From Actinomycetota bacterium (lineage in GTDB: Bacteria; Actinomycetota; Geothermincolia; Geothermincolales; RBG-13-55-18), in NCBI GenBank assembly GCA_030019255.1, contig JASEFK010000002.1, forward strand, positions 1 through 47,247: 47,247 bases of DNA, in the 5' to 3' direction. The notes beneath the pieces are model-generated. The model saw nothing but the letters and a program-made list of their open reading frames with translations, made no database searches and was not told where the DNA came from. The position numbers and the translations under genes are program-made. Positions 4,072 to 7,632 of the stretch are shown here, piece after piece (positions within the stretch are counted from its first letter, which is position 1; the number at the start of each line of letters is the position of its first letter).

Positions 4072-4260
4072 GCTGCAACTCCTTTCCTCTTCCTCCGGTG
4101 ACGGTCCCTTCTCCGTTCCCTTGTAGCCTTCCTTTCAACCCTCTTTCCGATTTTAGGCATATTTTTAACCGACGGCTCTCAGCCCCTAAGGCCTGGAGTC
4201 CCCGGTGAGTCCTCATCGCGGAAAGCGGTCCCGGTTCTTTTCCTCCCGGACACCGACGGT
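4072..4260 (-). other. Long 5' leader of fhs
   Basis: From the predicted start site near 4254 to the fhs ATG is about 183 bases, long for a gene with a normal ribosome site. Read on the minus strand it contains GC-rich arms, an AT-rich patch (GGTTAAAAATATGCCTAAAAT) and a purine-rich run ending in the Shine-Dalgarno. I compared it by eye with the THF, TPP and cobalamin riboswitch consensuses and recognised none. It may be a regulatory leader of unknown type or plain UTR. Confidence 0.4.
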
Positions 4261-4289: not shown

Positions 4290-4385
4290 GGAAGGAAGCG
4301 GGCTCGCGGTGAGGGATGCGACGCCCTCCGAGTGCGGTCTCGTGCCGCGTATACGTGCCGCGTATATATCATCCGATAGTGAATA

Positions 4386-5269: not shown

Positions 5270-5923
5270 TCACGTGACTCCCTTCCAGCGGGAGACGATG
5301 ACCCGGGCCACCTCCTCCTCCCGCCCGAAGAGGAAGTGGTCCGTTCCCTCCAGGAGGTGAAGCTCTCCCCTCAAGCGGGAAGCCAGCTCCTCGAGCTTCT
5401 CCCGGGAGGCGAACTGGTCCCGCGCCCCAGCGAGGACGAGTACCTCAGGGGGCAACCTCACCTCCCCGTCTTCCAGAAAATGGAAGAAGTCGAACCCCAC
5501 CATGGGAGGGCTGATGAGGGCCGCCCGGTGGCAGCGGCCGCTCTTGACCGCCCAGCGCAGGCCCACCCAGGCGCCGAAGGACCATCCGGCCAGGGAGAGG
5601 TCCCCGGCGTCCACGTCCTCCCGCTGGACCAGGAAACGGTAGGCCCCCTCCACGTCTTCCGTCTCCCGGAGCCCGCCGGAGGATTCCCCGGCGCTTTCCC
5701 CCACCCCCCGGAAGTTGAAGCGCAGGCAGGCCCATCCCTCCCCCACCAGCACCTCGGATATCACCCGGAGGAGGGGTACGTGCATGGAACCTCCCCCTAT
5801 GGGATGTGGATGGCAGAGGATACAGGCCGGAAAGGGCCCCTCCCCCTCGGGAAGCTCCAGTATCCCTTCCAGCCTCAGCTGCTCCAGGCTTTCGGAATAG
5901 AAGGCGATCCTTTCACTTCGCAT
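5270..5923 (-). CDS. Alpha/beta-hydrolase (COG2945-like)
   Basis: 217 residues from the chosen ATG, the normal size for COG2945 hydrolases. HPHPIGGG (38-45) is the oxyanion-hole strand, FNFRGVGES (69-77) the following loop. GWSFG supplies nucleophile S115, AGARD the acid D169 and GTDH the catalytic H196, so the triad is complete. Members hydrolyse small esters or thioesters; the substrate is unknown. The open frame extends upstream to 6100, but the start at 5923 has a purine-rich AGGAAGGGCGG stretch upstream and begins right where similarity to the fold begins. Cytoplasmic: no signal peptide seen. It is transcribed away from the FAD oxidoreductase. Confidence 0.85.
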   Translation of the reverse strand: MRSERIAFYSESLEQLRLEGILELPEGEGPFPACILCHPHPIGGGSMHVPLLRVISEVLVGEGWACLRFNFRGVGESAGESSGGLRETEDVEGAYRFLVQREDVDAGDLSLAGWSFGAWVGLRWAVKSGRCHRAALISPPMVGFDFFHFLEDGEVRLPPEVLVLAGARDQFASREKLEELASRLRGELHLLEGTDHFLFGREEEVARVIVSRWKGVT

Positions 5924-6200
5924 CTCGGCACCGCCCTTCCTTCCTCTTTCCCCCATCGCCCTTGGTGCACGGTTAAACAGCGGCGGGAACAGCCCGCTCG
6001 CTGAAAGCCACTCCGCCCCGCATCGCCGGGGGAAGCAGCGGCCCGTAGTTGGGGGCTTTCCGGCTCGGTACCTTATGACCGATGAGATGCTCCACTCCAA
6101 GCCGGTGCACGCTAACCGTACGCCGTGCCCCTTGCCGGCGCTTCACCGAGGTTATCATAACACCGGGTGCCGCTACCCGATCCCCCGTTTTTCCGCTTTG

Positions 6201-6209
6201 TGGTTTAAT
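6201..6209 (+). promoter_or_regulatory. Extended -10 promoter element (TGGTTTAAT)
   Basis: TG-N-TTTAAT fits an extended -10 box. Its predicted start point near 6216 falls inside the first unit of the tandem repeat that follows. No good -35 is visible, as is usual for extended -10 promoters. Confidence 0.4.
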
Positions 6210-6210
6210 A

Positions 6211-6254
6211 AGCACGTATAGGTGTGTGCTGGAGCACGTATAGGTGTGTGCTGG
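6211..6254 (+). repeat. Perfect 22-bp tandem repeat, operator-like
   Basis: Two identical head-to-tail copies, 6211-6232 and 6233-6254, of AGCACGTATAGGTGTGTGCTGG. Each unit carries the inverted pair AGCAC...GTGCT, so a dimeric regulator could bind each copy, two helical turns apart. The array sits immediately downstream of a putative -10 element and 47 bases before the FAD oxidoreductase start codon, where a bound repressor would block transcription. Confidence 0.75.
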
Positions 6255-6300
6255 CAAGGGCCGTGCTCCGGAAGGAGCGGGCCGTGACGGAAACGGGGGA

Positions 6301-7632
6301 ATGATGGACAGCGACGTTATCGTTATCGGGGGCGGATACGCGGGGCTCTCGGCTGGAGCCCTGCTGGCCAAGAAGGGTTACCGGGTGCTGCTCCTGGAGA
6401 AATCGAGGTCCCTGGGAGGCAGGGCGGGGTACCAGGAACGCGACGGCTTCCTCCTGGAATACGGCCTGCACGATAACCGCTTCGCCTCGGAGGGGGCGGC
6501 GGCAGCCGTCTTCCGCCGCCTGGGCCGGGAGCTCAAGTTCATCGAGCCCGGGGAGCCGGAGCTCTACCGCGACGGGAAATTCCTCCCCCTGCCCAACAAC
6601 GTGGGGAAGATATTCCGCTCCCCCCTCCTACCTGCGCGGGCCAAGCTCAGCGCCGCCTACTACCTCCTCAGGCTGGTCCTGGGCCGCCCGGAACGCAAGT
6701 ACCAGCTCTCCCTGGAGGAGCTCACTTCCCGGTGCCGCTCGCCGGAGACCCTGGAGCTCATGCGGGTCCTCTCCGGCATCGGGATCATCGCTCCCGACCT
6801 GCGGTACGCCTCCGCCGGAGAGATGGCCGCCTTTCTGCGCAAGGCCCTGCGGGCCAAGGTCAAGGTGGGATATCCCGAGGGAGGGACCCGCCGGATCATC
6901 GAGGGCCTGCGGGAGGAGGTGGAGGCCAACGGGCAGATAATGACCTCCACCCAGGTCACCCGGCTGGTCCTGCGCAAGGGCAAGGTCAGCCAGGTGAAGA
7001 CGGAATCCGCCACCTACTCCGCCCGCGCCGTGGTCAGCGCCATTCCCGTTCAGGGGGTTCCCGATCTTTTCGGGGGAAAGGATCTGCCCATCAAATTCGT
7101 GAAGAAGGCCCGGGAACTGGTGCCCACGGCGGGCATTGCCCTGGACCTGGGCCTGAGAGAAAAGGTCAGCGATCGGAGGGGGCTCCTGGTCACCCCCGAC
7201 CCGGTGACCATGGGGCAGTTCACCTCCAACATCGACCCCTCCACGGCCCCGGAAGGTAAGCAGCTCCTCTCCTGGTTCTATCCCCTTCCCCTGCCCTGGA
7301 TGAAGAACCCGGACAAGGTGAAGAGGGAGGAGGAGAGGCTGCGGGGGATGCTGGGAAACATGTTCCCCGGGATCTGGGAGGCGGTGGAGTGGGAACGCAC
7401 CATGCGCCTGAACATGGTGGACGGTTTCCTGCCGCGCCCCGGGCAGACCCGCGAGGACCGGCCGGGCTTCACCCTTCCCGGCCTGGACAACTTCTTCCTC
7501 TGCGGGGATACCACCTGCGCGGAGGGCACCGGTGGGGACACGGCCTTCAACTCCGCCCTCCGGGTCTCCGAGCTGGTGGACGAATACCTCCGGGAGGCCA
7601 AGGGGAACGAGGAGGAGGGGGAGGGGGAATGA
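6301..7632 (+). CDS. FAD-dependent oxidoreductase, phytoene-desaturase/amine-oxidase superfamily
   Basis: 443 residues. The N-terminus carries the Rossmann dinucleotide motif (VIVIGGGYAGLSAG, residues 6-19), an acidic strand end (LLLEKS) and the GG motif LGGRAG. The C-terminus has the family FAD-binding block FFLCGDTTCAEGTGGDTAF. This is the layout of carotenoid desaturase-like flavoproteins. No phytoene synthase or other carotenoid gene is nearby, so the substrate is unknown. The start is the ATG at 6301 or the adjacent ATG at 6304; GGGGGA precedes both. An upstream GTG in frame would place the tandem repeat partly inside the gene and is less likely. A second, distantly similar flavoprotein lies at 40.4-41.8 kb. 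Confidence 0.85.
   Translation: MMDSDVIVIGGGYAGLSAGALLAKKGYRVLLLEKSRSLGGRAGYQERDGFLLEYGLHDNRFASEGAAAAVFRRLGRELKFIEPGEPELYRDGKFLPLPNNVGKIFRSPLLPARAKLSAAYYLLRLVLGRPERKYQLSLEELTSRCRSPETLELMRVLSGIGIIAPDLRYASAGEMAAFLRKALRAKVKVGYPEGGTRRIIEGLREEVEANGQIMTSTQVTRLVLRKGKVSQVKTESATYSARAVVSAIPVQGVPDLFGGKDLPIKFVKKARELVPTAGIALDLGLREKVSDRRGLLVTPDPVTMGQFTSNIDPSTAPEGKQLLSWFYPLPLPWMKNPDKVKREEERLRGMLGNMFPGIWEAVEWERTMRLNMVDGFLPRPGQTREDRPGFTLPGLDNFFLCGDTTCAEGTGGDTAFNSALRVSELVDEYLREAKGNEEEGEGE

Follow-up and report, generated by a model that had tools for sequence, protein, structure and literature searches.

The 47,247-nucleotide stretch of DNA analysed here (hereafter the window) contains the sequence AGCACGTATAGGTGTGTGCTGG twice in tandem, with 0 mismatches, at positions 6211-6254, where transcription of a flavoprotein gene is expected to begin. 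Such an arrangement raises the question of whether the two units are operator sites bound cooperatively by a regulator or simply the product of a recent duplication. On the comparisons reported below, the repeat is likely to be a recent, lineage-specific tandem duplication at the flavoprotein promoter, probably produced by replication slippage.

Unit 1 (6211-6232, forward strand) and unit 2 (6233-6254, forward strand) were read directly from the sequence and recovered using Tandem Repeats Finder (TRF; period 22, 2.0 copies, 100% match), whose score of 88 for this array is the highest among the 33 TRF rows of the window; adjacent copies of high identity, as expected of a short tandem duplication, are thus present. 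Each unit contains the inverted pair AGCAC-N10-GTGCT. The array begins 1 base past an extended -10-like box that spans 6201-6209; from the end of unit 2 to the ATG of the flavoprotein gene at 6304 there are 49 bases. No match to a 20-mer of the unit (at most 3 mismatches) was obtained in 100 dinucleotide shuffles of the window, and second-order Markov controls of contig C2 (n = 12) contained 0 to 3 perfect tandem repeats apiece, none with a period above 11, so that the 22-bp array is a real duplication rather than a chance arrangement. The AGCAC/GTGCT pair is weaker evidence than the duplication itself: inverted arms of at least 5 bp were found in 7.9% of 5,000 non-coding 22-mers sampled from C2, and in 1.7% of 5,000 shuffles of the unit.

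The gene downstream (6304-7632, forward strand) encodes an FAD-dependent flavoprotein of the amine-oxidase type, with a match to Pfam Amino_oxidase (PF01593, E 2.4e-25). ATG codons at 6301 and 6304 are both candidate starts, and the position corresponding to 6304 is where the orthologs examined start; starting from the in-frame GTG at 6244 instead would extend the open reading frame (ORF) into unit 2. The intergenic region is bounded at its far end by a divergent alpha/beta hydrolase gene (5270-5929, reverse strand), for which a start at 5929 was chosen by us, the longest listed ORF beginning at 6100. Six proteins, the flavoprotein and five neighbours, were scanned for regulator families and none was found, one of the six being a domain of unknown function (PF10025). 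The original prediction, which described a perfect 22-bp tandem repeat with an AGCAC/GTGCT pair in each unit, upstream of a flavoprotein gene with no adjacent regulator gene, is therefore borne out on all these points. It had also placed an extended -10 box directly before the repeat; the position stands, the two being 1 base apart, and the identity of the hexamer is less certain than was stated, as it reads TTTAAT and lacks the A at position 2.

The promoter core TGGTTTAAT (6201-6209, forward strand) reads TGG-TTTAAT, and the form TGNTTWAAT is found at 11 of 15 family loci, that of the window included. With both strands of the 308,667-base contig C2 counted, TG.TTTAAT occurs once, at this core. 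An alignment of the upstream regions of 13 loci has six invariant columns, five of which fall in the core (6201, 6202, 6204, 6207 and 6209), with the remaining one at 6199, two bases upstream of the core, and these conserved columns lend independent support to the extended -10. A TGN preceding a TATAAT-like hexamer and conserved at orthologs, as in extended -10 promoters of the sigma-70 type, is thus found here, with five of the six hexamer positions matching TATAAT. The promoter scan used requires an A at position 2, which puts TTTAAT outside its reach, and it provides no evidence either way; by eye, no -35-like hexamer was seen 17 bases upstream of the core. Two g5 loci carry TGATATATT at the place aligned with the core.

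By spacing, with a start expected 7-10 bases downstream of the -10, transcription would start at about 6216-6219, inside unit 1. Some orthologs (L007, L009 and L012) allow an alternative reading with a shifted hexamer, AATAAT, the last base of which is changed by the repeat in the window, and this leaves the start uncertain to within a few bases. By eye, ATCCTCGTA or a variant comes directly after the core at 9 of the 11 loci that carry the core, and judging by its distance from the core this region should contain the transcription start. In the window its place is occupied by unit 1 (AAGCACGTA), with CGTA retained; the other exception is L015. A search of the family with a 19-base consensus (at most 3 mismatches) returned 9 places in 6 of the 15 genomes, 6 of the 9 at the flavoprotein gene, and no match in the window's own genome (reversed control, 0). 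The core (6199-6209 in the window; upstream regions of L004-L015) together with a TCCTCGTA-like start region forms a footprint that is largely specific to the flavoprotein gene, in several genera.

Searches for further copies of the repeat were performed with the 20-mer at up to 3 mismatches. No place besides the array was found in the 2.93-Mb genome to which the window belongs, and no match in any of the 14 other family genomes (the reversed pattern gave 1 match, in G008). AGCAC-N10-GTGCT occurs in the window's genome in these two units only (reversed control, 1 match per strand), and the best resemblance to the unit upstream of the 14 other family loci was 13 of 22 positions, using ungapped comparison on one strand of 420 upstream and 30 coding bases. 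Being unique in its genome and absent from the family and from the upstream regions of the orthologs, the unit gives no sign of a regulon or of a conserved footprint. Viral contigs searched for the 20-mer gave 0 matches. An exact 20-mer match in a Kapabacteria genome, a single copy that falls within long open frames whichever strand is read, was set aside, as it is about what chance gives in a collection of that size (estimate about 0.5). The genome search proposed with the original prediction thus returned nothing that would extend the suggested cooperative binding site to a second locus, and the alternative that it had offered, a recent duplication, is supported by perfect copies at one locus and by the lack of the unit in the other family genomes and loci (14 of 14).

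The region was compared by BLAST with two genus mates, L081 and L082. The alignment stops at window positions 5,913-5,922 and resumes at 6,312, the flanking genes showing 83-86% identity (86% in the flavoprotein gene), while the intergenic stretch around the repeat gives no alignment to either genome. Since the flanks align and the intergenic stretch does not, the repeat lies in fast-changing sequence and is probably young. Replication slippage in this lineage would have doubled 22 bp of the initially transcribed region, a slip that the self-complementary unit ends AGCAC/GTGCT may have aided; a single unit, taken as single-stranded DNA, folds somewhat better than its shuffles (z -2.17). The 5' UTR would thereby become 22 nt longer, and with this as the effect the consequence for expression should be at most modest and is probably slight. 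The duplication can be explained without invoking any protein.

Events of this kind are not confined to the flavoprotein promoter. In 628,667 sampled bases of the genome, 8 perfect tandem repeats with periods of 10-60 were detected, 4 in the 308,667 bases of C2 and 4 in 320,000 bases of contig C1. Six of them have a period of at least 12; the other two, with periods 10 and 11, could be chance cases such as those of the Markov controls. Set against the 0-3 repeats per control of C2 length, with periods of 11 at most, these 8 indicate that short duplications arise and persist in this genome. Imperfect arrays with longer units (24, 27 and 36 bp) were found by TRF in the same bases, all in coding sequence; the rough ORF calling applied to the sampled bases scores a quarter of the 22-bp array itself as coding, since it admits the GTG that lies in frame at 6244. 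A second perfect tandem, of 13 bp in two copies, lies at 4341-4366, 1.8 kb from the 22-bp array and upstream of the presumed promoter of a formate-tetrahydrofolate ligase gene, and is absent from the five relatives aligned there. In the genus mate L005 the flavoprotein leader carries another perfect tandem, unlike that of the window, with a 10-bp unit in 2.3 copies; it lies between 98 and 76 bases ahead of where the aligned protein begins, on the reverse strand of the locus. Together, the 10-bp and 13-bp tandems indicate that such duplication events recur here.

Three observations count against slippage: the 22-bp unit is the longest among the 8 perfect tandems sampled and falls exactly at the start region; its length is close to two helical turns, as would be that of an operator pair; and a 9-mer of the unit, GCACGTATA, is also present in the tandem 1.8 kb away. 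In a rival reading, a regulator would bind both units cooperatively as operators facing the same side of the helix, and would block transcription from the start site they overlap or set its timing. Perfect copies spaced by 22 bp, each with a 5-bp inverted pair, are what such a pair would look like, and the array, at about -5 to +39, would be suitably placed for a repressor. NrdR boxes are similar tandem operators, two sites near a promoter and possibly on one helix face, as here, and differ from the 22-bp units in spacing and in half-sites; no link of the array to a regulator or a target gene was found. Cooperative operators would be expected to recur in a regulon or to be conserved at orthologs, and neither was observed: the genome and the family hold no second locus, the unit is not kept upstream of the orthologs, the six scanned proteins, five of them neighbours, include no regulator family, and arms as long as those of the unit are carried by the share of sampled non-coding 22-mers given above. 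We therefore regard an operator pair as unlikely.

A repeat whose copy number varies, and which tunes flavoprotein expression from the promoter or 5' UTR by expansion and contraction, would fit the position and the perfect identity of the units, and has precedents. Promoter tandem repeats with copy-number variation are described in Mycobacterium tuberculosis at dop, lpdA and cysG, the lpdA and cysG units being of 54-58 bp and varying in copy number between strains and within populations (PMC12817950). The likeness is that in both cases repeated units adjoin a promoter and the gene they precede does not itself encode a repeat protein; the mycobacterial units of lpdA and cysG are longer and variable, whereas here there are 22 bp and two copies, in a comparison that covered one genome per species. 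For uspA1 and uspA2 of Moraxella catarrhalis, a 5' UTR with a G tract and AGAT units in variable number linked to expression is described (PMC4679880). There too the repeat stands between promoter and start codon, and the present case differs from a G tract or AGAT units in being one duplication of a longer unit. With only two copies, a unit shorter than the mycobacterial ones, and a flavoprotein that in our judgement has no obvious phase-variable function, a variable-copy repeat would be a rather improbable explanation.

The duplication might also have replaced the conserved TCCTCGTA-like start element and so rewired the promoter in one species, with GCACGTATA marking two young sites for one regulator. 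This 9-mer, common to the 13-bp tandem and the 22-bp unit, has 6 occurrences genome-wide, of which three fall within the two tandem arrays (reversed control, 2); of the remaining places, L034 and L036 lie inside long ORFs and L035 in none of the ORFs listed. The site at L035 (1501-1509, reverse strand; G000:C1:106378-106386) reads GCACGTATATAGGTGCG, which is nearly palindromic and similar to a portion of the 22-bp unit. The word is non-coding at 3 of 5 separate loci, although about 10% of the sampled sequence is non-coding, an excess that leans towards two young sites for one regulator. Against its significance, the two arrays were picked for sharing the word, an A+T-rich word is likelier to fall outside genes, and the total is no higher than composition predicts (estimate about 10); these three points leave the odds of a shared regulator unchanged, and we hold the rewiring scenario to be very unlikely.

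A role in RNA was also considered, in which the repeated UTR would fold into one or the other of two hairpins governing translation or mRNA stability. The 97-nt stretch 6214-6310 folds slightly better than its shuffles (z -1.96), and a GC-rich hairpin with a GGAA loop is predicted by folding at 6259-6283 (forward strand), in the presumed 5' UTR, with a putative function only. Hairpins were seen by eye in orthologs; over 11 family leaders including that of the window, however, the mean folding z was -0.5 (range -2.58 to 1.25; 11 of 17 upstream sequences folded, leaving out L008, L011, L016, L017, L018 and L019), and a conserved 5' UTR hairpin was accordingly discarded. The sequence is not conserved, and an Rfam search of the flavoprotein leader gave no family at threshold, a permissive search returning one chance-level match far below it. 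An RNA element is for these reasons extremely improbable. As for an assembly artefact, suggested by the draft state of the genome (43 contigs) and by the run of 99 N that directly follows the window, the array is flanked by an intact -10 core and an intact gene, and the 44-bp array is shorter than ordinary sequencing reads, so that its probability is practically negligible. The 99 N lie at G000:C2:47248-47346, and the window thus ends at a gap or a masked stretch.

Beside the 13-bp tandem, the leader of the formate-tetrahydrofolate ligase gene (4138-4220, reverse strand) is strongly conserved, with the pattern CGCGATGAGGAC..CACCGGGGACTC..GAGCC..TCGGTT... A covariance model built from 13 family leaders recovers these 13 again, with a single copy in each of 13 of the 15 family genomes, and gave no match in the 44 other genomes searched, with strict filters under which weak matches can be lost. 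The motif is located 141-152 bases upstream of the ligase gene in 13 of 13 cases (from motif start to the end of the ATG), and 32 of the 104 alignment columns are invariant. One long hairpin of 13 pairs is predicted; as 9 of these never vary and 2 change on both sides, covariation support is thin. No Rfam family was found at threshold over this leader, the best match below it being the TPP riboswitch (13.5 bits against a cut-off of 54.3, E 4.4). An fhsA motif with a terminator-like hairpin is described upstream of the same enzyme in Leptotrichia species and environmental sequences (PMC11109978). The ligase leader of the window is a candidate regulatory RNA or protein-binding leader, and it looks the more interesting element than the 22-bp repeat.

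Read as a recent duplication, the 22-bp array is a further example of a short duplication of young age in intergenic sequence that changes fast, and matters little as it stands; perfect repeats at promoters say "recent" before they say "operator". If its copy number proved to vary, the array would offer a simple set of natural variants with which to test, in this lineage, how expression depends on the sequence transcribed first.
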